64,000 bases of DNA, taken from Macrolepiota albuminosa (taxonomy: Eukaryota; Basidiomycota; Agaricomycetes; Agaricales; Agaricaceae). Positions 2,877-30,167 of this stretch are shown here, piece after piece (positions within the stretch are counted from its first letter, which is position 1; each line of letters opens with the position of its first letter). The DNA lies in NCBI GenBank assembly GCA_027475525.1, contig JAMWFC010000092.1, positions 496,001-560,000 of the forward strand. Direction: 5' to 3'. A program made the position numbers and the translations under genes. The notes under the pieces are model-generated. The model did no database searches. It was not told where the DNA came from and was given only the letters and a program-made list of their open reading frames with translations.

Positions 2877-3919
2877 TGATGACGCCAACTGTGGTTGGGT
2901 GCGCTGGACGTATACGCAGTACAACGCCGTCTCCAGCGCCTGGCATACGGGCCTGTGAGGAGTCCCGGCAGGGTCCCGGTGTGCTTGAGCAGAGGTGGTA
3001 GGACGATGCGCTAGACGGTAGCGCCTCGGGTGCTACCTAGCAAGTAGTAAGCGTCGTAGTTTAGGAGAAGTTATAGAGAAATAAACGAATAGCGCAGCGT
3101 AGCGTGCCCGTAGGTGGCACCGTAAACGATGAAGACGAGATAGACGAAGCTAGCGCCGAACTTGGTGGCAAAGTCAGGCAATGCTAGCGCGATTTGAACG
3201 CTAAGTGTAACTGGGTGCTCAAGAGGTTACGATTCGTTGTTATATACATGGCAAGTAGCTAGTTTTTATACTATGCGCTACATTATTTCCAAAATAAGTC
3301 CATTGACGGCGCTACCAATTAGCGCCTCCCTTTGTGACTGTAGCTAACGGCCACCTGTCAACGGCAACCTGCAGCACATGGGTGACGGCGACCAACGGCG
3401 ACTCTAAAACTACTTAGAAGTGGTACGAGTTTGCTCACTTTTTGATGTAATTTAATTGGCCATGCCATCCCGGGGTATGGTCAGGGAATCCTCGACAGAC
3501 GCCGTGAGCGCTAATTCCGGCGCTAAACATTGTACCATTTTTTGATAGATTTAAATGTCAGGTCTGCGTGTATCCTGTCTCGTCGTCATTGATTCTTTTA
3601 GACTTCTGATTGAGGTGCCTCGGTGATTGACAGCGCCAATTGCTAACTCCTTCCAGTACTGATCGGGGTTTGGTCAGAGTCCCCTCCCGCCGTTATGCTA
3701 GCGCTATGAGTCCTGAGTCTTCTTGGTCTTCAAAGTAACTGAGTGGAGTGCGCTGAGGGGCTGATACTGGTGATTGAGATGAATGGATAAGTCTTGCCAT
3801 AGAGCGCCCGCGCTAGGGCTGCTCTGTACCCAAGGCTGGTTGCTAGAGCCTTTAGTGTGTCAAGTGTCGGTTGGCCTATAATGTCCCTTGATGCGCTCAG
3901 TCCGAGTAGAAGCCTATCA
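2877..3919 (-). repeat. 3' LTR of the Ty3 element
   Basis: This 1,043-bp repeat matches 15,849-16,891 with nine transitions. It is unusually rich in the hexamer TAGCGC/GCGCTA: 13 occurrences by hand count, for example at 3,008, 3,019, 3,090, 3,151, 3,275, 3,508 and 3,699, where about 0.5 would be expected by chance. Confidence 0.92.
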
Positions 3920-3930
3920 TCTCCCCCCAA
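3920..3930 (-). other. Polypurine tract of the Ty3 element
   Basis: On the minus strand a purine run with six consecutive G residues ends exactly where the 3' LTR begins. This is the expected primer for plus-strand DNA synthesis. Confidence 0.7.
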
Positions 3931-4066
3931 CTGAAAAATTGACTGTCCTCAGTCAAACGCCGTCATTAATTTGACTGCGCTACAGTCCGTATAATGCTGC
4001 TGGCGCCTTATAAAAAGTCGTTTTCCGTACTTCACCTTCCCGTGTTTTCCTTCCCATCTTTCCAGT

Positions 4067-6882
4067 ATGTCCACTTCTTTCGACGCCTCTGCTCTCCGCA
4101 ATTTCCTGGCTAAGGCCTCCTATTTATTTGATTGCGCTAAGTCTGTCGGTCCCGCCAATGCGCCACAAACCGTCCCTGGTATTATGCACCTCTATCGGCG
4201 CTGGCTCGTGGTCCGCGGCTCCGACAGTTCCTGGGAGCGGGGTGACGAGGTTCGCGAGTGGTGCGTGGCCCGGTACCGTGAGTATGAGGGTGCCGATTGG
4301 TTGCGCCCTTTCGCGGACCTTTTCGTAAGTTTTCTAAGTTTGATTTTGGCGTTGTGGCGCTAAGGTTCAGCGCCCATACTAGGCTCCCTCCTTATCTGAC
4401 GAGATCGACGCGTTGTTGGCTAGTACCGAGGTGGCGCTAAGGTTCAGCGCCCATACTAGGCTCCCTCCTTATCTGACGAGATCGACGCGTTGTTGGCTAG
4501 TACCGAGGTCAGCGAAGTCCTTCCTTCTCCTCCCCCTTTTTCCACTGTTAATCCTTGAGTAGTCGACTCCCACCGTCGCCAGTCTTCCTACTGCCCCCTC
4601 GGCCTCTACTGTCCCTTCTGTTCCTACCGCCCCTCCTTCTTCGACTTCTGTTCCGCCTCCTTCCGTTCTTGGCAGCCCTTTTCGTGGCGCTGCTTCTTCC
4701 ACTCGGCCCCTCCTTCTTCGACTTCTGTTCCGCCTCCTTCCGTTCTTGGCAGCCCTTTTCGTGGCGCTGCTTCTTCCACTTGCCCTGCCCCAAGCGCTGC
4801 TTCTCCCGTCCGTACTGCCCCTCCCCATTCGGCCATCAAACGTATTGCCGTTTCTCGTAGCGAGCCACGACCCGGCCCGACCCCGTCCGTACTGCCCCTC
4901 CCCATTCGGCCATCAAACGTATTGCCGTTTCTCGTAGCGAGCCACGACCCGGCCCGACATGCCCAACTTCTCACGGTCCTCCGCGTAATTTCGCCATTGT
5001 TATTGAACGAGCGCCTCCTGCTCGTGCTAGTTCTCCTCCCAAACGTACTGTGCGTTCTTTCCCTATCTTCCTTACTCCATTTTTCTGACTTCTCCCCTTC
5101 CAGATCAATCTCCCTGCTCGTGTTCCCCCTTTGTATGTCGTAAGTGCTTTGCTCGTTGTCGCTAGACTTTAGCGCCTAAATGTTAATGTCGATAGGCACC
5201 TAACCAGACCATGTTCACCGACGCGGAGCTTGTTGTCGCTAGACTTTAGCGCCTAAATGTTAATGTCGATAGGCACCTAACCAGACCATGTTCACCGACG
5301 CGGAGCTTTGCGACCTTTTGCGTCTTCGCCATGATACTACCGTCATTGATACCGGCGTCCTGGCTGGTGTCCAAGTACTGGGCGGCAAGAAGAAGGTTAC
5401 CGTTGCGCCCTTGGAGCGTCGCGCGTTTAGGGCAAAGATTGGCGCGGTAAGCACTGGTTTGCCCATTGGTAGATTCATGCCGTCGCTGACTTCTTTCTTA
5501 GTGTGACAAGTGTTGGTCTGAGAACGATCCTGAGGGCTGCTGGTTCCCTACCGCGTCTCTGCCTTGCTATCGGTGCGATGCGTTGAAACGAGGCTGTGCC
5601 TTCAACGGGATTCATACTCGTGAACGTGGTAGGGACGCCATTATGCAAAGGAACTATGAGCGCACGGTGTTGGTTCGTAACGCCTGGGACTTCGTGCTGC
5701 AGCAACGTGATCTGGCGGCTATTCACCAACTCACGGTAATCAGCGCAGCCAGCCTGGCGCTGCCGACTACCCAGGATGGTACTACCATGGCGGCACCTTT
5801 TGCTCGCTCTCCTCGTTGTCCCGTCCTTTCGAAGCGTAAGCCTGTTGTCGCGTCTCCTGGCAAGAGCCCTAGTAAGCGCCGTGAGCTAGCGCCTGCTACG
5901 CCTGTGGTTTTGTCTTTGACCGAGTCTTCTACGGATGAGGGGGAAGGCACTGAGAGGGATGCCGAGGGAGAGGATGATGATGAAGCTGAGCCCATTGTTG
6001 ATGCCGATGCGCTGTTGGCGGTACGTGCTCTCCTGCTTCGCCTTACTCCCCCTATCGCCGCTAACCCTCGTCAGAGTGGCCCCAGTGGTAACCAGTACGT
6101 ATTTTCCTAACTTCTCTTTTCTTCGCGTGCTAACTTCTTGACTGATAGGTCCCCCACTCCTGTTCCCGCCGTAGTGGCTATCCCTGCTGCCGAAGATGTC
6201 GTTATGTCTGATGCTGGCGCTACCCCTGCCCCCGAGTCGGTTGCGGCTAGCGACACTCCGGTGGCTCTTCCTATTACTCCGTCCCTTACTCCTCCCCACA
6301 GCTCCCCTTCTTTTACTAGTAGTCGCGAGACTTCTGCGGCGCCGGAGTCCGAAGGAACCCTGGTGCCGGAAGGTGAGCGTCATCGCCGCTGGAGATACTT
6401 GCCTCCCTACGGCATCCATCTTTCTTCCGCCAGAGCTATGTCCCCCGGCGATGAGCGCCATGAGTGGATGCCCCGTGCGCCTGTAACTGTCTGGGTACGT
6501 CCATCTTTGTTCGTTCCCCTTTTCTCCCCTTTTCTAATCCTCCAATAAGTTCGATCCCTTTTGGACACCCCCTCCCGCCATGCGAGTTTCTGGCGACGCC
6601 TTCCCTTGGCTCGGGGACAAGTTCTCCTATCCTGTTACCCCTCTACGTCCTTCTGCCGACCTTCGCCAGCAACTCTGTCATATCGAGGATGCGACCGAAG
6701 CCATTGGTCGCGAACTTGCAAACCTGCGTCCTCGCGTTTCCACCTTAGCTCGCTGCGAGCGCCTCCTTCTCAAGCTCCATGACGATATTTCAGCTGCGCT
6801 TGAGTGGCAAGCGAGTAACTCGATCCAGGACAGGGACTTGCTTCCTTTGGGCGATCCCGCCCTTCCCGAGTATGATCCGTAG
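4067..6882 (+). CDS. Antisense accessory gene 1: 702-aa protein with Zn2Cys6-like cluster
   Basis: Eight exons fit consensus splice sites and one open frame once the 77-bp duplications are removed: 4067-4324, 4460-4507, 4563-5049, 5104-5139, 5285-5446, 5502-6094, 6149-6494 and 6550-6882. These sum to 703 codons. Introns are 54-68 nt. The N-terminus is short and helical, with a GIMHLYRRW motif resembling the other two accessory proteins. A Pro/Ser/Thr-rich linker follows. At the start of exon 6 is a cysteine cluster C-x2-C-x8-C-x8-C-x2-C-x6-C (CDKC...CYRC...C), close to the fungal Zn(II)2Cys6 pattern, then basic, acidic and Pro-rich regions and a helical C-terminus. It lies entirely inside the Ty3 element, opposite to gag-pol. 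A nuclear DNA-binding role is inferred from the cluster only; I do not recognise a named family. Confidence 0.75.
4354..4507. repeat. 77-bp tandem duplication (assembly join)
   Basis: 4354-4430 is repeated at 4431-4507. It duplicates an intron end and exon 2 of accessory gene 1. Confidence 0.9.
4629..4782. repeat. 77-bp tandem duplication (assembly join)
   Basis: 4629-4705 is repeated at 4706-4782, shifting the frame of exon 3 of accessory gene 1; removing one copy restores it. Confidence 0.9.
4805..4958. repeat. 77-bp tandem duplication (assembly join)
   Basis: 4805-4881 is repeated at 4882-4958, also in exon 3 of accessory gene 1. With both exon 3 duplications removed the exon is 111 codons. 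Confidence 0.9.
5155..5308. repeat. 77-bp tandem duplication (assembly join)
   Basis: 5155-5231 is repeated at 5232-5308, covering intron 4 and the start of exon 5 of accessory gene 1. Confidence 0.9.
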
Positions 6883-6968
6883 TTGCCGACCGTAACTCGA
6901 TCCAGGACAGGGACTTGCTTCCTTTGGGCGATCCCGCCCTTCCCGAGTATGATCCGTAGTTGCCGACC
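6815..6968. repeat. 77-bp tandem duplication (assembly join)
   Basis: 6815-6891 is repeated at 6892-6968 across the stop codon of accessory gene 1; the protein is not altered. Confidence 0.9.
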
Positions 6969-7485
6969 CCTTAGCGCTTTTAAACTTTTATGGACTTTTG
7001 TCTTTTGATACGAACTTTGTAGTGTGTGTGATACTAAAAATAAACGCCTCCCTTGGCTTCAAATCGTCAGTTTGTAAGTAATCAAAAGAAAAATAAGTAA
7101 AAAGGGGAAACGCTCAGTAGATCATCACAGCGCAAAAACCCCTTTGCCGACGTGGTCCAATAGCCATTACCGCGCCAGCCTAAGTAGAAAATAGGAGCTG
7201 TCTGGAAATAAATAAGCGGATCCATGTAAGAAGTAGCGCGTATAAAGAAATAGAAAACCAGTGATCGCTTATGCCCGTTTAGCGCGGTTGTGAGTAAGCG
7301 CTGAACATCGAATGTCGATTCCCTTTTTGGAGGGGCCCAGAATAAGTTAAACACTTTTGATTGGCTAGCGCTCCTGTTAGGGTCCTGGCTCCTTGAGAAA
7401 AGACCTCCCACGCTGTCGCTAATCGAAACACTTCCCGTGTCCTATAAATTACTTATGCATCAACTCGATTCCATCAGTCTTCGCG
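6969..7485. other. Gene-free spacer between accessory genes 1 and 2
   Basis: No credible gene is seen on either strand; the 109-aa minus ORF here has no features. The spacer holds three copies of TAGCGC (near 7,232, 7,279 and 7,366), a higher density than in the coding parts. It probably contains the terminator of gene 1 and the promoter of gene 2. Confidence 0.5.
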
Positions 7486-7542
7486 ATGGCCACCCCGTCT
7501 GGTTGCGTGTGGACTCGAAGCTGTGATCGCGCCTATGTTACC

Positions 7543-8007
7543 ATGGACCCTCCCACTTTTCTGGACCGGGCCACCTCGTTCTTTCATCATTACCCTCCCA
7601 AGGGTATTCCTAAGTTGGCCGACGAAGTAGTCGAGTTGGGTCGTTGCTGTCGGCTTCTGCGGGCTGCTTGTGAAATTTGGGGAGACGCGTCCCCGTTAAC
7701 GCGTTTTGGTACAGAGGCTACTTGGAGTCAGGCTTTCCATGTGCGTGTCTTGCTATTCTTGGCGCACTCCTTCTGACAGTCGCCCAAATCCAGGAAATCG
7801 CCACTGAAGACACGGCGGATCGTCTTCAACTTTTGATGGAGGAAAGCTATTACCTGGTTAGTAACTGAGCCATCACCTCTCCTTCCGTGTCTAACGGCTC
7901 TTTTCTCCTAGTCCCCTCGCAAGTATACCGGCGCTCGTCTCTTTCGTGGTCCCCTCGAGGGGCCGACGGTTGTTAGCAAGCGCATTTCTTGGTTCGGCCC
8001 TTCTTGA
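7543..8007 (+). CDS. Antisense accessory gene 2: small helical protein
   Basis: Three exons (7543-7708, 7780-7856, 7912-8007) join in one frame to a protein of 112 aa; an upstream in-frame ATG at 7,486 would give 131 aa. The intron ends GT...AG are consensus-like, but the first donor is a choice made on phase. The N-terminal region contains FF-x3-PP-x-GI, an R-rich helix and a closing tryptophan, matching accessory gene 3 in spacing. The C-terminus is basic. I do not recognise a family. It lies inside the Ty3 element, in the same direction as accessory genes 1 and 3 and against gag-pol. Confidence is moderate because the protein is short. Confidence 0.5.
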
Positions 8008-8260
8008 CCTGTCGCGTGTTGTTTTTCTCCCCCCCCCTTATTGTTTGAGTGAGGCGATCCCATCTTCTTCGCAGCGCCACCGGCCTAACATATTCCCAGC
8101 TTTTTGCTTCTTTTGCCGTAGTTATATGAAATACATCGTTGTTGTCGCGTCCTCGTGATTGTGCCGCATAAGTTCTGTTTCCTAAGTCCCTTCGACCCTG
8201 CATAATGTCGCTAGGTATATATTTGAGATTTCCGGGCCTAGCGTTGTTAAGTTCTTCGGA

Positions 8261-9049
8261 ATGCCTACTCCCTCTTTCTTTCTTGAAGACATCACCTCCG
8301 TCCCTCGTCCCGAGGTTTTAGATCGCCTCGAGATGTTCTTTGCTCGACTGCCTCCAGGCGGTATCCGACACCATAACGGAAATATCCTTACCCTGATTCG
8401 GCGCTACCGGTTACTTCTGGCTATGGCCCAGGAGTGGCTCGTGGAGTCCGAACAGCATCCCAACGCGGTAAGTTTCTGTCGTCAGGGTGATCAAGTACCG
8501 TCTTACGTGTCCTTCCAGCCTCCTGTTTCGGGTAGCACAAAAAGCTTGGAGTACCTACTCCTCGAAACGGATAATGTTGTTAGTTCCTCTTCTTTTCCCG
8601 CTCCTACGTTCAGGTTTGCTGACCCCCAGCTTCAGACTTTGAAGTGGTTGCCCTTGCCGGACCTGATTGACGACGAAGTTCATGCCGCCACGCTTCAGCG
8701 CGTCATCATACCGTTTACGCCTCTAGCTCCTCGCTTTGGAGCGGGAGCGCCTCCTGCCCCCATACATGAGTCTCCACCCAGTTCCTTCACCTTTCGCTTC
8801 GGAGCTGGAGCGCCGCCTGCTCCCATAAACGAATCTCCCACCGGCTCCTCCACCATTCGCGCTGGAGCGCCGCCTGCTCCCACCAATGAATCTCCTCCCG
8901 GCTTCTCCACCTTTCCTCCGGGGACCTTTCCCTCTACTCCGTCGCCTATTCTTCCCCCTGCACCGCCTCCTTCTCCTGCGCATCTCCGCCGCAGACAGCA
9001 CCCCCGTTGCTCTGAGGGATTTGTCAGGGGTCCTTGCCGTAGAACGTAA
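8261..9049 (+). CDS. Antisense accessory gene 3: helical N-terminus plus GAGAPPAP repeats
   Basis: Two exons (8261-8467, 8519-9049) encode 245 aa. The 51-nt intron (gtaagt...ttccag) is a multiple of three and has no stop, so an unspliced reading also stays open. The N-terminal 70 residues carry MFF-x3-PPGGI followed by LIRRYRLLLAMAQEW, the same pattern as accessory gene 2 and, more loosely, accessory gene 1. The C-terminal half has three imperfect copies of a GAGAPPAP-type unit of about 24 residues in a Pro/Ser-rich tail that looks disordered. Its stop codon faces the end of pol (9,187) across a 137-bp gap, so the two transcription units converge. The function is unknown; a partner or regulator of the 702-aa protein is only inference. 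Confidence 0.6.
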   Translation: MPTPSFFLEDITSVPRPEVLDRLEMFFARLPPGGIRHHNGNILTLIRRYRLLLAMAQEWLVESEQHPNAVSFCRQGDQVPSYVSFQPPVSGSTKSLEYLLLETDNVVSSSSFPAPTFRFADPQLQTLKWLPLPDLIDDEVHAATLQRVIIPFTPLAPRFGAGAPPAPIHESPPSSFTFRFGAGAPPAPINESPTGSSTIRAGAPPAPTNESPPGFSTFPPGTFPSTPSPILPPAPPPSPAHLRRRQHPRCSEGFVRGPCRRT

Positions 9050-9186
9050 AGTAGCCCATAGATCAATTATTGCCAGATCCATAGCCCTGTATAGTATTGT
9101 ATAGTATGAAATTCAATGTGTTGTTGTTCCATTCATAAGTAAGGTGCAAGGCGCTAAGGTCTAGCACCCTTCCCCTTCGGATCCTA

Positions 9187-12100
9187 TTACTGATCGGTTT
9201 CTTCTTCTGGTGCGACTTCGTCATCGTCCACAAGTTCGGTCTCCTCTAGCTCTCGAAGTTTAGCAGTGTCAACGTCTAGCGCCGATAAAGGCAGTGAAAT
9301 GTGTTCGCGCGCTAAGTAGGGAATGAGTCGGAACGCCGCTACTGGTCGATGCAAAACTGAGCCGTCCAACTCGCAGAGTACGTATGCGCCTCCCCGATTG
9401 CGGGAAACCACAATTAGGGGTCCCAGATACCGAGGCCGCATCTTTTTGTTATGAGTAACTTCGATCTTGGAGTTGCGCATTAGTACTAGGGCGCCAGTTG
9501 TGAAGTTGTAGTCTCGGATCGTGGCGCTATGCTCGGTCTCAAATCGTAGCGCAGCTTGCCGTCTAGCCTGAAATACTACCTCGTGTAAGCTCGGATCGTG
9601 GCGCTATGCTTGGTCTCAAATCGTAGTGCAGCTTGTCGTCTAGCCTGAAATACTACCTCGTGTAAGCGCTCGAGATCCTCCATGCATCGTTGTAAGTCTA
9701 TAGCGCGTCTAGCAATCATGTTGGTAGAGGATAGTATTGAGTTCGGTGGGGGTTGTAGGTACGTCGCTTCCACCACGTCCGCAGGTAGCAAGGGGTGGGT
9801 GCCAGTCGCCGCATAGTAGGGAGAGCAGCCCATCCTCTTTCGTACGGTAACCCGCTCCGACCAGAAGACCGAATAAGTCGCCTCGCTCCAGCGACTTTCG
9901 TCGCCGTCGACCGCCTTGAATAGCGCTTGTCGAACATCGAAATGAGGCCTTTCTACGATTCCATTAGCACGTTTATTGTATCCTGAGACTCGGATGTGTT
10001 GTATGTTGTATTTCTTGGCAAGATAAGTGAGTGCCTTAACTATTGGCGCTCCGTTGTCTGTGATGATCTCGTGAAGGGCTCCCCATCGGCAGATAACGTC
10101 CTCAAAAAGCCACTTAGCTATAGCGTCTGTATTTTCCCGCTGGAGCATACGGAACTCCGGCCAATGTACCAAGGAACACCTTCCTTGAATGATATACTTG
10201 TAGCGCCCTGACTTGGGCATGTGCATGGTGTCGATATATATTTTTCCGAATAACGGCGCGGGAGTCGCTACTGTTGGGGGAATTAGAACCTGACGTGTCT
10301 GCTGAATTTGACAGAGATGACAAGTGCGAATATACCACGCGATATCGGCGCTAACTTGCGGCCACCAAAAGCGCTCCAAAAGGTTCGCCCTTGTCGCATA
10401 GAGTCCTCGGTGTCCCAAGTCATCATGCATAGCGTGTAGAATCCTAACTCGATTATCCGGTTTGATTACTAGTTTATGGGCGCCATCTCTATTTTGTCGC
10501 CAAAGTCGGTTTTCCACCATAAAGAAAGTTGTCGCATATCGAATGAAGGTGGCGTATTCCGTATCCGTAAGGTCTGATGGTCGTTGCAAATCCTGTAGCC
10601 ACTTCCTAACCTGGTCCACTCGCTGATCTTCTGACTTAGCTTTGGCGCTTCGAGGTACTGCCGAATATGGCAGGTTCTGACTGTCTTCTCGCAAGGGTCT
10701 TGGTTCCTCGACTATCTTTAGATCGTTAGATGGCTTAGCGACGTTATAGATACTGGCCGTGTAAAAAGTCGATGACGCCTGATATGGTCGGGGCTGGTAC
10801 GGAACAATAGGGTGAAGCCAATTTGAAACTGGTTGGTCTTTGCGAAGCGCCGGAATAGGCAGCTGAATGATATGCATGAAACCATGCAATCGATTGATCC
10901 AGTCGTCAAATACATCGTTGTCGCTATCGTCTAGCGCAGCTGAATGATATGCATGAAACCATGCAATCGATTGATCCAGTCGTCAAATACATCGTTGTCG
11001 CTATCGTCTAGCGCTTCATCTTTTGGTTGTCTGGGTCGCCTAGATAATCCGTCCGGCCCGTGGAATGCACTTCTGACGTGTACTAACTCGAAGTGAAACA
11101 TTAATATCGCTACTACCCAGCGGTTCATACTGGCCGACGGTTGAATATCAGGGTTCTGAAGCATTCCTTTGATGTATCGTGCATCGACCTCGACAATGAG
11201 ATTTCGTACCCCAATGAGGTACATGCGCAGCGCCTGAAACGATCGAAACAAGCCATATAACTCTAGCTTGGGCTGACTGTAGCGCGATTCTCGGTCATTA
11301 AGAGTAATCGATCCGAAGCGATTGTAGCGCCTGATCTTCCGGTTCGCGCTATCACACTGGCATAAGAAGAAGCCAACGGCGATATATGATGTGTCAACAG
11401 CAAGTATAACGGGATCGGCGGTAGTATAGTCAATGGGTACCAATGGTTTTGCTTCCTGTAGCGCCTTTACTAAGTCCTTCTGGGCATTGATTTGATCGTA
11501 GTATAGTCAATGGGTACCAATGGTTTTGCTTCCTGTAGCGCCTTTACTAAGTCCTTCTGGGCATTGATTTGATCAGGTCCGAACTCAAAGGGGACCCCTG
11601 AACGGGTTAGGCGATTAAGGGCGTTTGCGCGATGAGAAAAATGGTGTATGAACATGCGCAGCACCCCTACAGTGCCCAAGAACGTGCAAACTTCCGAGAG
11701 GTTATGACAGATCCCCCATTTCTCCAACAGCGCTAATCGGCTCTTTTCTGGAACCCTGCCTTCTGGCGTGCAAACGTGCCCCAAAATTTTAAACTGCGGT
11801 GCGCAAAGAACGAGCTTGTGCCCTGAAAATGTCCCGCCACAATACTTCATGCGCTGAAGTACTCGGTTAACCAGTTGAAAGAAGTCCCATAGCGCCATAC
11901 GAATATTAGGATTTTCTGGGTGAACTTCGGGCTTGCCATCTACCAATCGCCAATCCTTCGGGCCTTTAACTCCTACGTCGTCTATGAAGCTGAGCACATG
12001 GTGAGGTATTTCGGGCTGTAGGATAAACGTAATATCATCGTGAAATATCGGTACCGAGTTTGTCCATCCCATAGGAAGTGTGACTAGTCGTAGCGCCCCA

Positions 12101-13205
12101 AACGGTGTTTGAAATGTCGTCAAGTCGCGAGAGGAAGGATGGATTAAGCACTCGTCATAGCCTACGTACAAATCCAGGGTAGCGCCACATATTCGTCCCG
12201 CGAAAGATTCAGCGACGTGATCGGGAAATGGCGGTACCCCTGAATGACGAATGGTGACTTTGTTTAGCGGTTCTAGGCTGTGAACTATACGTAGCTTCCC
12301 GTTTTTCTTTAGTACGCAGAACCACCTCGAGCGGTAGGCCGAATTAGAAGGCTCGTATACACCTGCCGCTATCTTGGAGCGAATAATTTGGCAGACTTCG
12401 GCTTCGATGCCCGGGGGTATGGGTCGGTTATGTTCAGTCCAGGGTACGTGCGGTATGGTTGGGATGACCACTGGTGGAAAGAAGTCAGTTCTAAGTTTAC
12501 CGCGTTCTGAGTCCTCCCATGCGAAAGCCTCATTCTGTTTTTGCATGATGTCGACTAATACGTTCATCTCCTCCGTCGAGAGGAAGCCGGTATCGTGGGC
12601 GCTAAGAAATAGCGCCTTTCGTTCTTCTGTAAATCGTCCCGTTGGTTCGAAGGGTAGTGGATTTGGGTCGAGTTTTGGCAGGGTAGCCAAAGGGTCGCCT
12701 ATTATTTTTCTTTCGATGTTGGTTCGAAGGGTAGTGGATTTGGGTCGAGTTTTGGCAGGGTAGCCAAAGGGTCGCCTATTATTTTTCTTTCGATTCGAAA
12801 TTCCTCGGGTACGGCGCTTGCTACCGGTTTCGTTTTAAGCGCTACGGGTTTATATTTCTTCTTGACCTGAACCCCTTTGCACTTAGGGGTACTATTGTTA
12901 GCAAACGTATTATAAATAGAGTCATGGTTTCTAGCAAAACCTGATATCAAAGATTCTTTCGAGTCGGGAGTAGAAACGAAATAAGTGTCTGTTGAAAGGT
13001 TTTCAGTAATATCTGACGCCGTGAGGTATAAGTAGGATAACGCTTCGCTAATAAGCGACGAAGAAGAATTCAAGATTTCATGGGCTAAAGGGGTATATGA
13101 TATAAAGTTTACTTGCCCAGTCCAATGGTTATAGTCCAAGATAAGCGCTTCATCTCCATGATCCTCATCACTCATCTCCTCGATGGCGCCGGAAAACACT
13201 CGCAA
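9187..13205 (-). CDS. pol: Ty3 Pol: reverse transcriptase, RNase H, integrase
   Basis: As assembled the frame breaks four times, each at a 77-bp tandem duplication. Deleting one copy at each leaves 3,711 nt, exactly 1,237 codons with no internal stop. RT contains LDLYVGYDE and FIDDVG. RNase H has AVDTS, an E and D pair, VDARY and HGPDGLSRR. Integrase has an HHCC zinc site (HAMHD...CHLC), then IDTMH, ITDNGAP and GIVERP giving the D-D-E triad. The tail is acidic and no chromodomain is evident. The frame is -1 relative to gag and overlaps it near 13,172-13,205, so expression by -1 ribosomal frameshifting is likely. The first ATG in the frame is not necessarily used. Confidence 0.9.
9513..9666. 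repeat. 77-bp tandem duplication (assembly join, three mismatches)
   Basis: 9513-9589 is repeated at 9590-9666 in the integrase region. The copies differ at three C/T positions, unlike the other joins, perhaps because bases from different element copies were merged or polished. Confidence 0.85.
10859..11012. repeat. 77-bp tandem duplication (assembly join)
   Basis: 10859-10935 is repeated at 10936-11012 between RNase H and integrase; it shifts the pol frame. Confidence 0.9.
11421..11574. repeat. 77-bp tandem duplication (assembly join)
   Basis: 11421-11497 is repeated at 11498-11574 between RT and RNase H; it shifts the pol frame. Confidence 0.9.
12641..12794. repeat. 77-bp tandem duplication (assembly join)
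   Basis: 12641-12717 is repeated at 12718-12794 upstream of the RT domain; it shifts the pol frame. Confidence 0.9.
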
Positions 13206-15769
13206 GGGTCGTCGCTAACGTAAGGTCGCTTTCTCGGTCCCGGTTTCTGGAATTTTCCTCGGGGAAACGTTGGTACTGTTCTCCTGACGCCCGAGTTAGG
13301 GTCGCTAATAGTTAGCGTCGTTTTGTCTTCAGACGTCGTCTTGACTACTGATCGGGCTAAGACGTCGAAGGGCCTCCCTAATAATAAGTCGTACGCAGGC
13401 GATCTAAGAATGTGTATTTGAAGGTAAAACGTAAGATCGCCAACAGCACATGGCACGTTACGAGCCATTCCCAAGGATCGATCAATAGTGCCGTTAGCGC
13501 TTTGCATATTAAGAATGATGGTCGGGTCGTAAATGATGCCAAGCTCGTTAGCGACGTCGGCAGCCATTGAAATAATCTGTGATCCGCTGTCCACGATAGA
13601 TTCTATCTCGCTTTTTCCATCAACTGTCAACATAATCGAGCGAATCGCATGAGAGTCTTGGGCTACAGTGAGGATGGCGGGATCGTCGCTAGATCTTAGC
13701 GACTTAAGGTAAGTTTCGACCGGGTCAATGGACGTAGCTTCTTTGGGTGGCGCGGCCTCTTCTTTGATTTCCGACGCGACCGTCTCGGTTATGTACGCGA
13801 ATCCAGGTAGCGCGTCGTCGCATTCGTCCACCGCCGTTACATTGTTAGCTACGTTCCGTCGAGGGGTTACCGCTGTACGCATCTGATTCCTGACGTCTGG
13901 CGCCACACTGCATAGCTCCCCTACCAACATCGTGACTTGACTTTTCATAATACGATCGAATACTTGCTTAGATTTTTCTATGTCGTAGATTGGTGCCGTT
14001 GGTCGGTAGCCTCCTGCTGGCTTGTCTGGCGCCCCAAAGTTTTGATTGATAGGCGGAGCGTAGTTATCGGCAAGTCCTGAATACGGGTGTAATGGTGGTT
14101 CCGTGCTAGCTGAGGCTTTGGCCGTATCAGGTGTGTCGTTGTTGATGCTGGGATTCAAAGGCTTCGCGGGTGCTGGATCTGACGTAGCGCCTGAGGGCCT
14201 ATAGTCTTTCAACGGTTGCTTGCTCTTTTTAATCTCTACACCATCGAAAACCTGATTTTTTAGCGACTTTAGCTCCCTTTCCAACGTCTCGATCCTCTCC
14301 TCTCGTGACAACGTCGGTCGCTCGCTAACAGCGTTAAGCTGGAGTACTTCATGGATTAGCGCCTGTTGTGGAGTTGTTTCTGCCTCCGTTGCGGCCGTAC
14401 TATTGAGATTGCCCGTCGCTAAGTTCCCAGGGTTCCGTTGGTGCCATTCATCAATTCGTCCCTGGAAGGTTCGGTGCTCAGGATATAGAGGGATGTTAGC
14501 GCCGGAGGGTAGGACTATTTTCCCGTTGGTGCCTCGGCACGCTCTTCCTTGGCGTAGATATTGTTCGAGGATAGTGCAGCGTCCGCGAGTCATCGTATGT
14601 CCTGCCTCACCACAGAAGTGACAAGGGCCGGATTGCATATTACCTCGTGGCGCATTAAGGCTAGTCGAGATTAACGTTTCCAATTTGCTCATAACGTTTG
14701 CGACGGCCGTGTTGACTGCGTTTTCCAGATCCTCCTTCTTGACAAAACCTCCCTGATTGTTAGTCGCGCTAGGTGCTGGCGCCGCAACAGGTGGCGCCTT
14801 TCCTCCGTTATCAGTGCTAGAGGGTCGCTGGAAGGGGATGCCAGTATCCGTGCCTTTCAGTATCCATTTACCTGCTTCAAAAACGTCTTCTATATTGTAG
14901 GGTTCCTCAGGATGGTGGTCGGACTTAAGAATTTCTAAGCGACGAGCTATACGAGTCCATAGTGATGTTGGAATGCCTTGTTGAAACAAGCGCCGTTCCT
15001 TGTTCCTGTAGAGTTTGCCATTCTGTACTAGCCATCTTGCAATTCGCTGGAAATCTCGATAATAAGTAGATAGCGTGCCTAGCGTATAAATGCCCGTTGC
15101 GAAGGTATCCTGTACCAGTTTCTGGATTTCAAGGACGGTATAGCGCGTGGATTCTTCAGTGCCAGGGTACAGTTTAATGATCGCCTTTTTCCATTCCTCG
15201 TAGGTAAACGACCTTGGCACCGCCTCTCGTGTTAATCCTTGAAACTCATCCAGTCCCGTCCAGGATTCCGCGGTATCGTAGGAAACGTATCTGGCGGCAT
15301 ATTCTTTCATTTGTGTGTTGTCGGTGACTCGGCAGTCGCATAATAAATATTCCAATTCTCGGAAATACTGTGTTAGCTCGCGAGGTTTCGTCTCGTCCCA
15401 TTTTGGCGACGAGAAGTGGTTTCTTGGCGGCATACGTGGTGTGTTTGCCTGCTCCATACTAGCTGGCGTCGACGTCGTGGTGGGAATAGTAGTGTTAGTG
15501 GTAGTTTTGCTTGGCGTGGTCGTAGTCGGTACTGGCTCGGGTAACTCTGAGTCGCTAGGTTCTGGCGATAATGACCTAGACAGCTCTTCCAAAGGAGTAA
15601 GCGGTGTATGGTTTTCACCTGCTAAGTATTCGAACGGTCGGGAAAATGGGAAGAAGCTTTCAGCCAAGCTATCTGGAGCGGCTTCAAGTTCCTGATCTAA
15701 AGTCTGCCTCGGTAGCGCGCCTGGTAAGTGTGGTGACTCAGTTAAGGTTTGTTCAAACGCGCTCTCCAA
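13172..15769 (-). CDS. gag: Ty3 Gag-protease polyprotein
   Basis: An 865-aa ORF that follows the 5' LTR and would form the virus-like particle and process the polyprotein. The first 115 residues are acidic and Ser/Pro/Thr-rich. A retrotransposon Gag-like helical region lies at about 120-300. A zinc knuckle variant, C-x2-C-x4-H-x6-C, is at 383-398 (the usual spacing is H-x4-C). The retropepsin active site is DSG in IVDSGSQI (D727), followed by the LLLGRPF motif. Protease therefore sits in the gag frame and RT in the -1 frame. The ORF is intact, without a 77-bp join. The start codon lies 79 nt inside the 5' LTR. Confidence 0.88.
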   Translation of the reverse strand: MESAFEQTLTESPHLPGALPRQTLDQELEAAPDSLAESFFPFSRPFEYLAGENHTPLTPLEELSRSLSPEPSDSELPEPVPTTTTPSKTTTNTTIPTTTSTPASMEQANTPRMPPRNHFSSPKWDETKPRELTQYFRELEYLLCDCRVTDNTQMKEYAARYVSYDTAESWTGLDEFQGLTREAVPRSFTYEEWKKAIIKLYPGTEESTRYTVLEIQKLVQDTFATGIYTLGTLSTYYRDFQRIARWLVQNGKLYRNKERRLFQQGIPTSLWTRIARRLEILKSDHHPEEPYNIEDVFEAGKWILKGTDTGIPFQRPSSTDNGGKAPPVAAPAPSATNNQGGFVKKEDLENAVNTAVANVMSKLETLISTSLNAPRGNMQSGPCHFCGEAGHTMTRGRCTILEQYLRQGRACRGTNGKIVLPSGANIPLYPEHRTFQGRIDEWHQRNPGNLATGNLNSTAATEAETTPQQALIHEVLQLNAVSERPTLSREERIETLERELKSLKNQVFDGVEIKKSKQPLKDYRPSGATSDPAPAKPLNPSINNDTPDTAKASASTEPPLHPYSGLADNYAPPINQNFGAPDKPAGGYRPTAPIYDIEKSKQVFDRIMKSQVTMLVGELCSVAPDVRNQMRTAVTPRRNVANNVTAVDECDDALPGFAYITETVASEIKEEAAPPKEATSIDPVETYLKSLRSSDDPAILTVAQDSHAIRSIMLTVDGKSEIESIVDSGSQIISMAADVANELGIIYDPTIILNMQSANGTIDRSLGMARNVPCAVGDLTFYLQIHILRSPAYDLLLGRPFDVLARSVVKTTSEDKTTLTISDPNSGVRRTVPTFPRGKFQKPGPRKRPYVSDDPCECFPAPSRR

Positions 15770-15823
15770 TAGGAGGTGGTGCTGTCGCTGGGCTCGAGTT
15801 TCTGGCGGAATTCTGCCTCAATA

Positions 15824-15845
15824 GAACCCCTCGCAGTGGGCTCCA
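15824..15845 (-). other. Candidate tRNA primer-binding site of the Ty3 element
   Basis: Three nt after the end of the 5' LTR the minus strand reads TGG followed by a sequence whose complement ends in CCA and resembles a tRNA acceptor and T-arm. The exact tRNA could not be assigned and the T-arm spacing is off by about one base. Confidence 0.5.
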
Positions 15846-15848
15846 AAA

Positions 15849-16891
15849 TGATGACGCCAACTGTGGTTGGGTGCGCTGGACGTATACGCAGTACAACGCC
15901 GTCTCCAGCGCCTGGCATACGGGTTTGTGAGGAGTCCCGGCAGGGTCCCGGTGTGCTCGAGCAGAGGTGGTAGGACGATGCGCTAGACGGTAGCGCCTCG
16001 GGTGCTACCTAGCAAGTAGTAAGCGTCGTAGTTTAGGAGAAGTTATAGAGAAATAAACGAATAGCGCAGCGTAGCGTGCCCGTAGGTGGCACCGTAAACG
16101 ATGAAGACGAGATAGACGAAGCTAGCGCCGAACTTGGTGGCAAAGTCAGGCAATGCTAGCGCGATTTGAACGCTAAGTGTAACTGGGTGCTCAAGAGGTT
16201 ACGATTCGTTGTTATATACATGGCAAGTAGCTAGTTTTTATACTATGCGCTACATTATTTCCAAAATAAGTCCATTGACGGCGCTACCAATTAGCGCCTC
16301 CCTTCGTGACTGTAGCTAACGGCCACCTGTCAACGGCGACCTGCAGCACATGGGTGACGGCGACCAATGGTGACTCTAAAACTACTTAGAAGTGGTACGA
16401 GTTTGCTCACTTTTTGATGTAATTTAATTGGCCATGCCATCCCGGGGTATGGTCAGGGAATCCTCGACAGACGCTGTGAGCGCTAATTCCGGCGCTAAAC
16501 ATTGTACCATTTTTTGATAGATTTAAATGTCAGGTCTGCGTGTATCCTGTCTCGTCGTCATTGATTCTTTTAGACTTCTGATTGAGGTGCCTCGGTGATT
16601 GACAGCGCCAATTGCTAACTCCTTCCAGTACTGATCGGGGTTTGGTCAGAGTCCCCTCCCGCCGTTATGCTAGCGCTATGAGTCCTGAGTCTTCTTGGTC
16701 TTCAAAGTAACTGAGTGGAGTGCGCTGAGGGGCTGATACTGGTGATTGAGATGAATGGATAAGTCTTGCCATAGAGCGCCCGCGCTAGGGCTGCTCTGTA
16801 CCCAAGGCTGGTTGCTAGAGCCTTTAGTGTGTCAAGTGTCGGTCGGCCTATAATGTCCCTTGATGCGCTCAGTCCGAGTAGAAGCCTATCA
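15849..16891 (-). repeat. 5' LTR of the Ty3 element
   Basis: The second 1,043-bp LTR. It would carry the promoter for the gag-pol transcript. It keeps the TAGCGC/GCGCTA-dense composition of the 3' LTR. Confidence 0.92.
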
Positions 16892-17862
16892 GCGGACCAG
16901 GTTATAAGGCTGTTAACAGAACCCCAGCAGTTGAGTGAAGCACGTCCACCAAAACAGTTGCAACGATCGATATGGCGTGAGTTGTCAATTGTTACTACTT
17001 GCTTGATTTGCCAGCGGGGGTGCATTGGGATTAGACGGTAAGCATTGGCAACATCAGATTTCCATAAGACCAAGCGTCGGTTGCTCGTATGGCGAATTTT
17101 GAGTAGTTGGCTCCCTAAGTGCTTCATGTTGTCCATAGGAAAACCACTGATATTTTCATATTTTATCATTGAGTTCAAAGAATGTGTGCCTGCAGATTGA
17201 TTGGTAACCAGACGGAGATCAGATGATTTGGGTTTTGGTACAGCATGAATCGGAGAACTGCAGCAACCTCAATGTCACGCTGCTTCCGCAAGAAATTGGC
17301 TTCAATAGGATCTTCTGGGGTCCCGAGCGACATATCACATGTTAGTGGATAAGTGGAGGGTCGTGTGTCAGCAAAAGGCCAGAACCCTTCCTTGAGACCT
17401 TTTATAACTGAATTCACAAAAGGGCGATTTGGATGGTGTTGAACAAGACGTTCAAAAATTTCTATGCAGATGGGTGTTACCAGTTTGAAAAGATTGCTGT
17501 GGTTTTGAATCGTGGCAGTGACACACGAGTTGTTTAGTTCATCATTAGGAGGTGAAGGAAGAGGTCTCGCTGTAAGGGACCATTGTATTAAAGTGGAAGG
17601 AAGTGGCCGAGCGAAATCATAATAATTGAACCGGAGGTATTTGGGAACATTTCCTTTTAAGACATCAATTCGTGACGTTTTGCGGACACTCCGTTTTTCG
17701 ATGGTTTCCTCCACACCTTCGACACACGTGCCTCCAGAAGCATTTGCTGGCATCGAAAGGACATCCAAGGTTTGTGTTCCACCTTTTACAGACTGCTCTG
17801 CTATTTCCTTGTGATCCTCCACCTCTGCCTGATCGATTGATTGCCGATTTTCCTCCACTCTT
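16892..17862 (-). pseudogene. Ngaro reverse transcriptase, 5' half (frameshifted and interrupted)
   Basis: This is the N-terminal part of the outer element's RT. Recognisable DIRS-order sequence includes GLKEGFWPFADT, then IHAVPKPK, LRLVTNQSAG and WKSDVANAYR, which carries the first catalytic aspartate. The frame changes near 17,255: the upstream part reads in one frame to LRKQRDIEVAA and the downstream part in another from SSPIHAVPK, with some residues apparently lost. At 16,892 the Ty3 LTR interrupts it. The upstream frame stays open back to 19,115 across the Gag-like ORF; see the separate note on that overlap. Confidence 0.85.
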
Positions 17863-19125
17863 TCATGATGAGCCACAATGGTTAATTCCTCCGGTATCAA
17901 GGATGGCATCCTGGAGGTCATTGAACGTTCCCCTGTCGGTGAGTAACATCTTTGTTCCAGCTCCAACTCGTGCTCGGACAGCTTTTTCAAACTCGATGAC
18001 ACTGGCATGTAGACCTGGTGGCTTGGCAGAGAAAAGGCCGACGATGTAGCGGTAATGGTGGGACCATTCTTCTCTCCGGTTAGGCCATGCAAAGCCAAGA
18101 GCTTCTCTGTAGAGGTTTGCTGCAACAGTCCATTGCCCAAGGTCCTCGACTCTTCGAATCGAATCGCTGTAGCCAAGGACGATTTCACGATCTCTGAAAT
18201 GCCCTCGATTCTCCCGAGGAGCTCCGATATGGTGGATAGCGGAATATATGGCATCGAAATCTGCGAGTTCTCCTCTGAAGAGTTTATCCCATTCTGTTGA
18301 AGGGAAGTTACAGGGAGCTGCTCGAGACATGGTGATCTGTCGTTTGGCTGCAGTGGGGTTTTTGAGGTACAGTTGAAGCAGCTCTCTGTTTCGGACGCAT
18401 CGAGGGTCTTCATTTTCTCGAGCAAGTCTCTCTTCTTCGTACCAAGGGAAGTCGCTATCTCTAACTTTTGACTTCTTGACTTTCGTCCCACTCTTTTCAG
18501 CGTTAGATCCATATGATCCTTCGGTATCGCATGACTCATTGTCGTCGTCTGATCCTTGCTGGGCCAGTCGTGCTTGGCGGACAGGCAAGTACTCTCTACT
18601 GATTTCCCCTTGCTCGATTTGATGGGCATTGGTTCTATTCTCTTCAGGAGACTGCAGCTCGGTGTTCTGTCTATACTGCTCACTTCGCCTTTCAGCCTTT
18701 TCCCGGTGTAAGGCTCGCTTTCGTCGTAATTTCTCTTTCTTTTCAACGGAGTCGAGTATCCCGAGGTAACCGGTGAGAGCCTGTCGAGCAAGGTTCTCTG
18801 TAAGGTCTGACTTTCGGATTCTTTCGACGACGGAAGTAATGGCGTCAATTTTTGATTGCTGTCCTCGCCGAAAACCGTCAACGATGCCTTCGAGTTTGTC
18901 AAAGATTTGCTTCTCCTCTTCAGACAGCTGTGCTGCTTCCGGGGTAGAGTCCCGAGACGCTCGGCGAGGCTCGGCCGGGGCGTGAGTTCCTTCTCCAGAC
19001 TGGTTTTCGAGAGGATTTTCCGTGAATGTTTGGGAGGTGGATCCTGAGGGGTCAGGTTCTCGAGCCGGTCCAGTAGCTGTGCGCTGAGAAGTGGAACTGG
19101 AGGCTTGTCTACCATGCGAACTCAT
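17863..19125 (-). CDS. Ngaro ORF1, Gag-like protein
   Basis: A 420-aa ORF at the 5' end of the outer element. The N-terminus is Ser/Thr/Pro-rich and unstructured. A helical, charged region follows, with a basic KEKLRRKRALHREKAERR stretch near residue 130. The second half contains FPWYEEERLARENED and a conserved-looking block with NFPSTEWDKLFRGE, characteristic of ORF1 of fungal Ngaro elements as I remember them. No zinc knuckle is present, which is usual for this group. It probably coats the RNA. The frame is intact and its start lies 188 nt inside repeat A1. A second frame is open over nearly the whole gene. Confidence 0.7.
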   Translation of the reverse strand: MSSHGRQASSSTSQRTATGPAREPDPSGSTSQTFTENPLENQSGEGTHAPAEPRRASRDSTPEAAQLSEEEKQIFDKLEGIVDGFRRGQQSKIDAITSVVERIRKSDLTENLARQALTGYLGILDSVEKKEKLRRKRALHREKAERRSEQYRQNTELQSPEENRTNAHQIEQGEISREYLPVRQARLAQQGSDDDNESCDTEGSYGSNAEKSGTKVKKSKVRDSDFPWYEEERLARENEDPRCVRNRELLQLYLKNPTAAKRQITMSRAAPCNFPSTEWDKLFRGELADFDAIYSAIHHIGAPRENRGHFRDREIVLGYSDSIRRVEDLGQWTVAANLYREALGFAWPNRREEWSHHYRYIVGLFSAKPPGLHASVIEFEKAVRARVGAGTKMLLTDRGTFNDLQDAILDTGGINHCGSS

Positions 19126-19344
19126 GTATCAGAGCTATATAAAGTGCGATACGAAGTGTATTGAGTTGCAACGATTGCGAAGCCACGTAATACAAAAATA
19201 TACTACGTCGCGGTACTAAGGAGCAGAGGCTTGTCTACCATGCGAACTCATGTATCAGAGCTATATAAAGTGCGATACGAAGTGTATTGAGTTGCAACGA
19301 TTGCGAAGCCACGTAATACAAAAATATACTACGTCGCGGTACTA
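19100..19344. repeat. 119-bp direct duplication at the 5' end of the Ngaro element
   Basis: 19100-19218 is repeated at 19226-19344, offset by 126 bp with 7 bp between. Each copy carries the Gag start region and the first 32 bp of repeat A. The first copy of A is cut short after 32 bp and joined to a 7-bp piece that also occurs inside the A repeat, as if by an internal deletion. Confidence 0.75.
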
Positions 19345-19511
19345 CGAGCGTTGAGAAAGAGGAAAGAACTAAGTAAGTAGAAACCCACCTAAGGAGCAAG
19401 CGTTGAGATTGGAAAAGGATGCCAATGTCTCAACTCGCTCCCTAGTGGGTGAGCACGTGAGTCCCGCGACTCTGTGCACATTAGCCTCGTGAAAGTTTTA
19501 CTTTAACACGG
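19313..19511 (-). repeat. Ngaro split direct repeat A1
   Basis: A 199-bp repeat identical by eye to A2 (238-436). It marks the 5' terminus of the outer element; host sequence resumes at 19,512, 64 bp before the DPH2 start. Confidence 0.85.
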
Positions 19512-19575
19512 TAAAATGACTAAGCGCACATAGTTTGATCGAAAAAAATTGTCCCAGTCATCTATCTCGATTGTC

Positions 19576-21678
19576 ATGGCTACAGAGCACTCTGCATTCG
19601 CCGCGTCAGGGGAAGAAGCGATCACCCGGACTCTTGATATCCATGTAGATCATATTACAGACAGTCTCTCGCCATCTGAATTTCAGAAGTTTTATGAAAT
19701 CTCACGGACGGCGGAGGAGATCGTGAAGGGTAATTATCAACGAGTACGTGTGTTACAATAGAATGCAATAATCGCCTGCTCTTGGAGTACTCAATATCAA
19801 TTTGCAGATTGCATTACAATTCCCCGACGAACTACTGCATGTTTCTGTTCCGGTTTATCGACAGCTCAAGGCAAACATCGGAGAAGGCAGAGAACTTTAT
19901 GTCCTTGCAGACACCTCCTATGGCAGGCAGGCAGCAACAATCACTGTGCCACTTCTGTGATTCTTATCGACAGTAGTTGCTGCGTTGACGAGGTGGCTGC
20001 CCAGCACGTTGATGCTGATGCCGTTGTACATTACGGGCATGCTTGCATGACACAGTAAGTGGAGTCAAGGCTGATTGCACGATCTCACACCATCTCGTCC
20101 AGAACATCTCGCTTGCCAGTGATCTATGTATTTGGCCATAAGCCCTGCGACATCTCTGCTTGCATCGCAAGCATCACGGCGTTCTTCCAGCAGTATTTCT
20201 TGACTGCAAACGAAGAGGATGGCACAAGGAAACCAGATTCGATTCTTCTGAAGCATGATGTAGGCTATACACACCTAGCAGGTAGCCCTGTGCAAAGCTA
20301 TAGCTGGAGACATACTAACAAGTCTATATTTTAGATATATTAAGGTCTAGGATCGAGGAAGTCTTCAGCACCTTTGGCGTCAAGACATTGTACCAAACAA
20401 TACCAACACAGACCACTCCAATAGCTACTACACTGATAGGATCATTGGAAACAAAAACTCATGGACCGCAAAACGTCTCCCACTCCGCAACGTCTGTTCC
20501 GACTTCTGAAGATCCAGCCTGCTCCTCAAATCCCGCACTTCTGTACATTGGTGGCGAGAGTCTCACTTTGACAAACATCCTGATGACCCATGGTCTGTCT
20601 GATGTACGTCCCTGGGTTGAAGATCTGTATGCTACAAAGGAGCATCTCACTCTCTTGATCACAGGTCTTCTCCTACGATCCATCGACAAATATCACAAGT
20701 CTGGCCTCTGGGCGCTCAAATCGCCTTCTAATGAGGCGTTATGCCGCCGTGCAACATGCTCGCGACGCTGATGTATTTGGGATCCTTGTGGGCACGCTTG
20801 GAGTCTGTACGTCGTGTCCTAATATCAATCGACCTATTTCAAGCTCATGGCGCGTCGTTAGCCTCTTATCTTCCTCTCATCCGTCACATCCGGGCTCTCT
20901 TGACGCGACACAAGAAAAAAAGCTATACCATCAGTGTGGGCAAGCTAAATCCTTCCAAACTTGCAAACTTTCTTGAGATCGAATGTTTCGTACTCGTTGC
21001 TTGTCCTGAAAATAGTGTGATAGAGGCCAAGGTTCGATTCTGATTTAATAACCTGACTTGACATCTCATCTATCTATAGGAGTTTCTCCGGCCAATTATT
21101 ACGCCTTTCGAGCTTGAAGTCGCACTTCAATCGACACCGAAGTGGACAGGACGTTACGTGTTGAACTTTGAAACATTGCTCGCAGATGCGCCAGAAAGTG
21201 TGGCGGCCAATAATATTCAGGCTGAATCAGGAAATGGCGGGAAAGAGGAAAGCGAGTCTGACGGCGAAGATCCTGATCGACCAGTGTTCTCACTCGTCAC
21301 GGGAACATATCGACAAGCTAAACGCTACGGTGCAGACGGTACGTTCGCTCAACTTGTTCTGGTCTGTTTTCCGATGTTCATCAGTCATCAGAGAATCAGC
21401 TTGACAGTGTTCGTGGCCCTGATTCTGCAATTGTACTACGAAACCAAGACAGCACAGTGGCTAAGTTAGCTGATAGTGCAGCTGGTAAGTGCATTGTTGA
21501 GAGGAGGAATTAACTGACCAATGGATCGCTGTGATCAGCCATGTTCTTGAAGACAAGAACATACCAAGGACTGGAGACACGAGTTGGTGAGGATGCTCCC
21601 AGCGTACTGGAGCAAGGACGGAGCGGAATCGCGAGAGGGTACCGCGATGTTGACCATGAGGCGGAAGCATCCGAGTAA
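19576..21678 (+). CDS. DPH2: 2-(3-amino-3-carboxypropyl)histidine synthase subunit 2 (diphthamide biosynthesis)
   Basis: Ten exons (19576-19743, 19808-19926, 19977-20054, 20103-20281, 20335-20603, 20665-20806, 20862-21031, 21080-21338, 21392-21484, 21539-21678) give 538 aa in one frame. DPH2 pairs with DPH1 in the cytosolic Fe-S radical-SAM complex that starts diphthamide synthesis on eEF2. Diagnostic segments are [19 protein letters not shown] then [24 protein letters not shown], and the C-terminal [11 protein letters not shown]. Intron 2 (19927-19976) has a GC donor, chosen because it rebuilds the family sequence around the conserved CC. The ATG at 19,576 is 64 bp from the retroelement end, so the promoter probably lies in transposon DNA. 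Confidence 0.93.
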
Positions 21679-22840
21679 TATTTGACACACGGGCCAAGAC
21701 TTGCAAAGGTACCAACGTGCCTTCTGTAACTCAGGCCCGCTTGAGTTCCAGAGTCACTCGATCCCAACCGAAAAATGACGATCTTGACAGTGACAACTGA
21801 TGGCTCTTTGGATTGTCCCTTTACGCTACAGCCTTTGGCAATGCCTATAGATGAGCAAGAAAAGGGTGATTCAGATAAGAATTCTCCTCCACTGTTTGCC
21901 CATCCTGATCGACGTGTTTGAGCCTGGGGTGGCTCAACCACTTGTAGTTCCCAAGCTCACAGATGGAAGGTCTCCTTGTTCATAGTCTTGAATCTGAATA
22001 TCGTTCTCCTCATCTTGTGAAGAAAATCTGTGTGTTAACGTTCGATCATCAGTCAGCAGACCTTCTGGTTGCAGATATGTGTCAACAATGGGCATAAATC
22101 GGCCAGCATATGGATGTATCTTATCGCTTCGAAATCAATCTAATTGGATATTGGTATCGAGACCGGGGATCACGCCTAGTATTGAATCACTTCGGAGTCG
22201 TTATGCTATCACGTACCACGACCAGATGTCCTACTTGCCGGCTGCCGACTCCAGAATAAATCCTAGAGGCTAGCCGTTCCGGGGACCGGTGGACCGGTGG
22301 CTGCTCTGACTCAAGCGGCTCTTAATGCAGTAATGCGACCAGCTCTTCCAGCTCTTGCCTTGTAGCATCTTTCTGAGGTTCTGCTCTCAGATATCGCCAC
22401 GGCAGATGCCTGCTCGATTATGTCCTTCAAAATCTGAACATAAGCTTCCCTGGGAACAGATCTTCAAGAGGACTAGAAAGCTGGCGGGAAACAAACTTAC
22501 TCGAGTGTACTTAAGACCCTAACATGATTCTCCATTAGTCGGGCCTTGAGATTTCAGAGTCACTTTCCAACACAACTCATGACGAGAGCTCTAACGCCAC
22601 TCTCCGTGTCCACGAAGAAAATGAAGCCGTGCGAATGCCTTCTACGACATCACATTAATCTGGCATTAAGGTCCTTTTCATAAGTATTGAAGGGGGTTTG
22701 AATTCAGTAACTGGCTCTGAAAGGATATCATGCGAACTGTTGCCCCGCATTCAGTAGATGAAATTACACAGAATCTAACACACTCCACCTAACGTCGAGT
22801 AAGGATTCGGTAAGAAGGGAGAGAATTTGTAATATATTAT
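21679..22840. other. Gene-poor interval downstream of DPH2
   Basis: Only short ORFs occur, such as 48 codons from 21,775 and about 50 codons near 22,110 on the plus strand. None shows a domain or convincing splice structure. This may be a decayed gene. Confidence 0.4.
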
Positions 22841-22841
22841 G

Positions 22842-22863
22842 AGGGACGGTTAGAGCCGTCCCT
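22842..22863. other. Strong hairpin next to the Fanzor-like fragment
   Basis: An 8-bp perfect stem (AGGGACGG / CCGTCCCT) closes a 6-nt loop. It begins 11 nt beyond the stop of the fragment at 22,874, on its 3' side. In TnpB/Fanzor loci a structured guide RNA overlaps this position, but a chance hairpin is equally possible. Confidence 0.4.
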
Positions 22864-22873
22864 GGTAGGGTCT

Positions 22874-30054: not shown

Positions 30055-30167
30055 TTTTGAAAGGAAAAGTAAGTCTGTTTCTGCTGAAGACTTTTTGTGA
30101 TGGCGAAGCGTGGGATTATGTACAAATTGGAGCAGGTTCTGATGTGTAGAATTGGTCTCATAAACAA

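Follow-up and report, generated by a model that had tools for sequence, protein, structure and literature searches.

Dispersed TAGCGC motifs and a candidate element-encoded reader in a Ty3 retrotransposon of a fungal genome

The element, its setting and its 77-bp duplications

The window, that is the whole stretch of 64,000 nucleotides analysed here, belongs to a host genome of 100 Mb in 129 contigs. At 2877-16891 it contains an element which, by its TG...CA pair of long terminal repeats (LTRs) and its gag-pol, is a Ty3/Gypsy LTR retrotransposon. Its features, and the short tandem repeats found in it and around it, are the following.

2877-16891: Ty3 element with two LTRs, minus-strand gag-pol and plus-strand antisense genes
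2877-3919: left LTR, 1,043 bp, TG...CA, 13 TAGCGC/GCGCTA
Between pol and the left LTR, plus strand: antisense genes
4067-6959, plus strand: gene A, multi-exon, antisense to pol, encoding the candidate motif-binding protein
5502-6110, plus strand: gene A frame opening with the zinc-cluster-like pattern CX2CX8CX8CX2CX6C
8186-9049, plus strand: further antisense open reading frame (MPTPSFF...)
9187-15817, minus strand: gag-pol (protease, RNase H, integrase zinc-binding), from the window's reading frames and from Pfam matches on the same genes in copy L039/L040
15849-16891: right LTR, 13 TAGCGC/GCGCTA
4354, 4629, 4805, 5155, 6815, 9560, 10859, 11421 and 12641: 77-bp tandem repeats within the element
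51022 and 61866: 77-bp tandem repeats outside it

The two LTRs differ from each other at 9 positions, and GCGG flanks the element on both sides, which looks like a 4-bp target duplication. Full-length matches to the LTR at 98-100% identity number at least 40 in the genome (the best 40 of 1,529 candidates, the window's own two counted in). In copy L039/L040 the Pfam models for RNase H, the integrase zinc-binding domain and the aspartyl protease match, while RVT_1 and rve did not reach an E value of 1 in the same profile search. A search of Rfam gave no matches. The Ty3 element appears to sit inside another one, at 1-2876 and 16892-19511, which the preliminary description called an Ngaro element and in which recombinase-like and RT-like frames can be seen by eye.

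Eleven tandem repeats with a period of 77 were found in the window, nine inside the element (eight nearly exact and one imperfect) and two elsewhere. They break the gag-pol frames and create false pairs of motifs 77 bp apart. In seven other copies these repeats differ in number and place; they are absent from copy L039/L040, and L044 and L051 each show a gap of 100 N with a 77-bp repeat on either side. The duplications are probably assembly artefacts, which we take to be unmerged overlaps left by an assembler working at k = 77.

Excess, pairing and conservation of TAGCGC

It had been claimed that TAGCGC or its complement GCGCTA occurs 13 times in one LTR and about 60 times in the element, on both strands. 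Each LTR does carry 13, and the whole element holds 71 (41 TAGCGC and 30 GCGCTA), so that the high density and the presence on both strands stand and the figure of 60 was an undercount. In the window's remaining 49,985 bases there are 15; a single one lies in the Ngaro flanks, as described, and three lie in the adjoining 16892-30891, a number as low as claimed, slightly below the roughly four that were given.

A hexamer count against composition and codon use had been set beforehand as the test of this excess, and the excess stays. Masking one of the LTRs and the duplicate units of eight 77-bp duplications leaves 12,358 bases with 53 motifs, 31 on one strand and 22 on the other, where a second-order Markov model fitted to this same element predicts 9.8 (Poisson 5e-22). 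The motif ranks first among hexamers in the LTR, in the internal part and in the element as a whole. The three gag-pol frames of copies L039/L040 hold 28, against a mean of 5.1 and a maximum of 13 in 1000 shuffles of synonymous codons, and codon use can therefore be rejected as the cause. Single-letter variants extend the motif to TAGCG[C>A]C, with 26 TAGCGCC against 2.4 expected and 15 TAGCGAC against 2.1. The background adjoining 30 LTR loci has 9 motifs in 34.6 kb. As a control for Ty3 pol, 5,542 bp of pol from other Ty3 elements, available as pieces in these flanks rather than as complete families, has none.

The preliminary description placed the highest density in non-coding parts. This holds for the LTR, which in L039 reaches 12.5 motifs per kb, and does not hold for introns: those of gene A in L039 (2 sites in 397 bp) have 5.0 per kb, no more than the 5.0 per kb of the part of pol contained in the L039 locus. 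The exons of gene A in L039 have 1.4 per kb.

The motifs also pair at a fixed spacing. The masked element has three exact everted pairs, GCGCTA-N5-TAGCGC, and when sites are placed at random, some arrangement, of whatever kind, recurs at least three times in about 1% of 20,000 trials. An everted partner with five or six matching letters stands at offset -11 for 10 of the 53 sites (six of them being the three exact pairs counted from both sides), compared with at most 3 of 53 at any other offset within 30 bp. When TCGCTA partners are included, the window has six distinct everted sites, of which the LTR has two, a gene A intron one and gag-pol three:

3008-3024: GCGCTA-N5-TAGCGC, left LTR (right-LTR copy at 15980-15996)
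3309-3325: GCGCTA-N5-TAGCGC, left LTR (right-LTR copy at 16281-16297)
5159-5175: TCGCTA-N5-TAGCGC, gene A intron (5236-5252 is a probable artefact duplicate)
10921-10937: TCGCTA-N5-TAGCGC, pol (10998-11014 is a probable artefact duplicate)
12599-12615: GCGCTA-N5-TAGCGC, pol coding sequence
13686-13702: TCGCTA-N5-TAGCGA, gag-protease frame

Genome-wide, and with copies of the same site included, everted pairs number 1,339 at N5, 19 at N4 and 1 at N6, and convergent pairs at N5 number 87; the corresponding reversed-pattern controls are 1, 5, 42 and 5. In several places the everted pairs at N4 appear as two sites 132 bp apart (G000:C29:105233, C58:179133, C65:2261939 and C79:380365) and possibly belong to another family with a changed spacing.

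At the intron site the spacers vary by copy (gactt, atttc, gtctc, gattt). Among its 13 rows, two of which represent one copy, the TAGCGC half is intact in 9, decayed at its CpG in 3 and otherwise changed in 1. The partner half is more variable than the TAGCGC half, and most motif sites are single half-sites; both facts count against the reading proposed below.

Conservation was scored with other hexamers containing one CpG as control. Strict conservation means identity, and the relaxed count allows CpG to have become TpG or CpA. L003 and L004 are one copy, so the set found via the motif pattern consists of seven copies (78.6% identity to L039), in which TAGCGC is kept at 35 of 45 positions strictly and at 42 of 45 relaxed, compared with 25% and 41% for the control. 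Because choosing copies by motif pattern is biased, five further ones were picked by identity of the gene A protein alone (rows of 83-87%, among the best 150 of 860 candidates scored). These keep 42 of 73 strictly and 64 of 73 relaxed (control, 26% and 55%), and their losses are mostly to TAGCAC or TAGTGC, as expected if they were methylated dead copies. The CpG observed/expected ratio is 0.56-0.72 in L053-L057 and about 1.0 in L058-L060, a difference that we read as decay of the methylation type in copies that were silenced.

The 12 copies taken together, with 22 distinct sites, give 77 of 118 strict and 106 of 118 relaxed (control, 25% and 47%), counts that are not independent because the copies share ancestry. 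Relatives thus keep the motif, as anticipated earlier, and selection seems to hold it in place. Among 309 hexamers with one CpG, TAGCGC ranks 2 by strict conservation in the 12 copies and 15 when CpG decay is allowed. Ranked strictly among all hexamers with n of at least 20, it stands 15th of 138 in the five copies picked by gene A and 34th of 714 when all 12 are taken, which counts against a reading of the motif by gene A.

Gene A and a second family with another motif

Gene A of L039, its splicing read by eye, has eight exons and encodes 708 residues. At least 62 homologues were found, all the listed matches bearing Termitomyces names (7,995 candidates scored), which makes Termitomyces or a near relative the probable host. 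Of 52 aligned sequences, counting fragments and divergent rows, 34 show CX2CX8CX8CX2CX6C without deviation. AlphaFold2 predicts with confidence a C-terminal helix of some 70 residues and coiled-coil type; the cysteine segment has low confidence in both models. No Pfam domain matches, including Zn_clus and TRP28 (PF04195), and a sequence search of the PDB gave no matches.

Fungal Zn2Cys6 (GAL4-type) regulators combine six cysteines in a CX2C...CX2CX6C frame with a coiled coil, and recognize dimeric sites in which CGG half-sites are set at a fixed spacing; their canonical cysteine spacing is CX2CX6CX5-12CX2CX6-8C. Gene A and the motif resemble them in the six cysteines of that frame, in the coiled coil and in the fixed spacing of half-sites. 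They differ in that the half-site is not CGG, that Pfam and PDB give no match and that the first cysteine loop is X8, a departure from the canonical spacing. The X8 loop, the lack of a match for the cysteine segment and the low confidence of its models count against our reading. By profile match and canonical spacing gene A does not qualify as a Zn_clus protein.

A search with a distant Termitomyces homologue led to a second family in the same genome (family 2; L058-L060, 86-91% alike across most of their length), which carries a diverged paralogue of gene A in the same antisense place. Its piece L059 has gene A and, among frames of at least 80 amino acids, no counterpart of the further antisense reading frames, which points to gene A as the factor shared by family 2 and the family of the window (family 1). 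The further antisense frames are for the same reason disfavoured as motif binders. The first part of these frames (8186-9049 in the window; 4262-4618 and 5059-5340 in L039) resembles by eye that of gene A, and they may be its diverged duplicates.

The top words of family 2 are CTTGCCG, CTTAGCG and CTTGGCG, summarized as YTRSCGM, and the integrase piece of L059 and of L058 has 13 TTRSCGM against 1.9 by codon shuffle. The three pol frames of family 1 have no excess of TTGCCG (2 against 3.6 by shuffle), although TTGGCG, a word of the family 2 class, is slightly elevated there (11 against 4.9) and counts against a clean separation. TAGCGC is in turn raised in family 2, at 17-18 per 5 kb, because the family 2 class contains TTAGCGC and CTAGCGC. 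In a stretch of the integrase that is 73% identical between the families, none of four family 1 sites is kept as TAGCGM in family 2, where a family 2 site overlaps one of them, and of 19 family 2 sites one is identical in family 1. Since so few sites are shared, the two motif sets appear to have been largely gained separately. A paralogous gene A thus goes with a different motif in each of two families, the expected direction at n = 2.

Several points weigh on the other side. Conservation of CTTRSCG within family 2 (65 of 89) is only moderately higher than the control (55%), the comparison covers two motif classes, and the families differ in more than gene A. A preference of family 2 for direct repeats at 13 bp was discarded, as it rests largely on homologous pairs.

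A possible self-recognition system and its rivals

On the sequence evidence above we consider it reasonably probable that gene A of the element encodes a sequence-specific DNA-binding protein, presumably a dimer, which recognizes the motif as its half-site and whose job would be element-wide anti-silencing together with activation of the LTR. The gene A protein, with its six-cysteine zinc-cluster-like segment and long C-terminal helix, would bind TAGCGMC half-sites, as a dimer on everted pairs GCGCTA-N5-TAGCGC and also on single half-sites. Since half-sites lie all over the element it would cover the element's own copies along their full length, both LTRs included, and this coverage of LTR and coding DNA would shield them from silencing and activate the LTR. 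We think of the role as protection of the whole element besides LTR activation because sites occur in coding DNA in addition to LTRs and introns. A broader version, which we put forward more tentatively and to which we give somewhat less than even weight, is that an antisense-encoded dimeric zinc-cluster protein may coat the DNA of its own family, block silencing and coevolve with its motif, each family thereby releasing no DNA but its own, as a convergent counterpart of VANC.

VANDAL/VANC is an anti-silencing system of Arabidopsis, as two papers describe (PMC5735166, PMC10398659). The word bound by VANC21 is YAGTATTAY, located in VANDAL21 outside its coding sequence; targets of VANC6 carry AGTTGTMC, and VANDAL motifs are spread by tandem repeats (PMC5735166). 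The preliminary description proposed self-recognition of this kind, a proposal partly supported by the everted pairs of fixed spacing and by the different motif found with a diverged zinc-cluster paralogue. The likeness extends to a short motif that is scattered through, and enriched in, members of one family and to an element gene as possible reader; that related families have different motifs points the same way over the two families compared. The likeness fails in other respects. VANDALs are Mutator-like DNA transposons, whereas here we deal with a Ty3 LTR retrotransposon of a fungus; their motifs are non-coding, while ours also occupy coding DNA; theirs were multiplied by tandem repeats, and the motif-bearing tandem repeats here are probable 77-bp artefacts. 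Everted pairs of fixed spacing and a zinc-cluster-like protein are further differences. The system may thus work like VANC, and on the features compared it is not a member of the VANC family. Should the motif indeed be read by the product of gene A, transposons would provide a second and independent example of sequence-specific self-recognition, this time among retrotransposons of a different kingdom, and with it a series of protein-motif coevolution within one genome.

Retand-type elements, too, have an antisense gene in the interval that separates pol from the 3' LTR; two papers on plants call its function unknown and suspect DNA binding (PMC7264820, PMC11963269). Gene A shares that position and differs in being multi-exon, in matching neither TRP28 PF04195 nor any other Pfam domain, and in having a candidate target motif within the element; our reading, if true, would give such antisense genes a testable function. 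Fungal DNA transposons encoding a TET/JBP dioxygenase, described elsewhere (PMC12730594), are likewise fungal transposons with a possible means against methylation, through an enzyme rather than a motif-reading protein and in another element class. Among the open-licence PMC papers listed we found no description of this motif or of gene A.

The motif might instead be an ordinary site at which an activator encoded by the element controls the LTR and antisense promoters, without anti-silencing, the pol sites being internal enhancers or decoys. This fits the peak of density in the LTR and the two everted sites there; the excess of sites in gag-pol over the codon shuffle seems beyond the needs of promoter control, and we regard this alternative as rather unlikely. 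Less likely still, the element may have recruited a DNA-binding protein of its host, be it a transcription factor, an insulator protein or a component of chromatin, with gene A unrelated to the motif. The tie between gene A and the motif is one that we infer, and the genome has 48,168 TAGCGC against 26,149 of the reversed word, though element copies may explain this difference; yet two families exposed to the same host proteins in one genome have different motifs at mostly non-homologous places, and the other Ty3 pol in the flanks lacks the motif over 5.5 kb.

Folding offers a very improbable account, in which GCGCTA-N5-TAGCGC, inherently self-complementary, would form a 6-bp stem with a 5-nt loop in RNA or DNA and serve RNA packaging or processing. 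Most sites are single and they occupy both strands, a TCGCTA partner breaks the outer base pair with TAGCGC, and in L039 only four of the six perfect 6-bp inverted repeats with a 5-nt loop are the motif, while no TAGCGC stem occurs with the other loops of 3-12 nt. That mutation bias, base composition, codon use, tandem duplication or assembly error lies behind the excess has next to no probability. The nine probable-artefact duplications add about five to the raw count and account for the pairs spaced 77 bp apart, not for the excess; the excess persists after masking, under the codon shuffle and in L039, which is free of the duplication, and the motif is conserved above other CpG hexamers.
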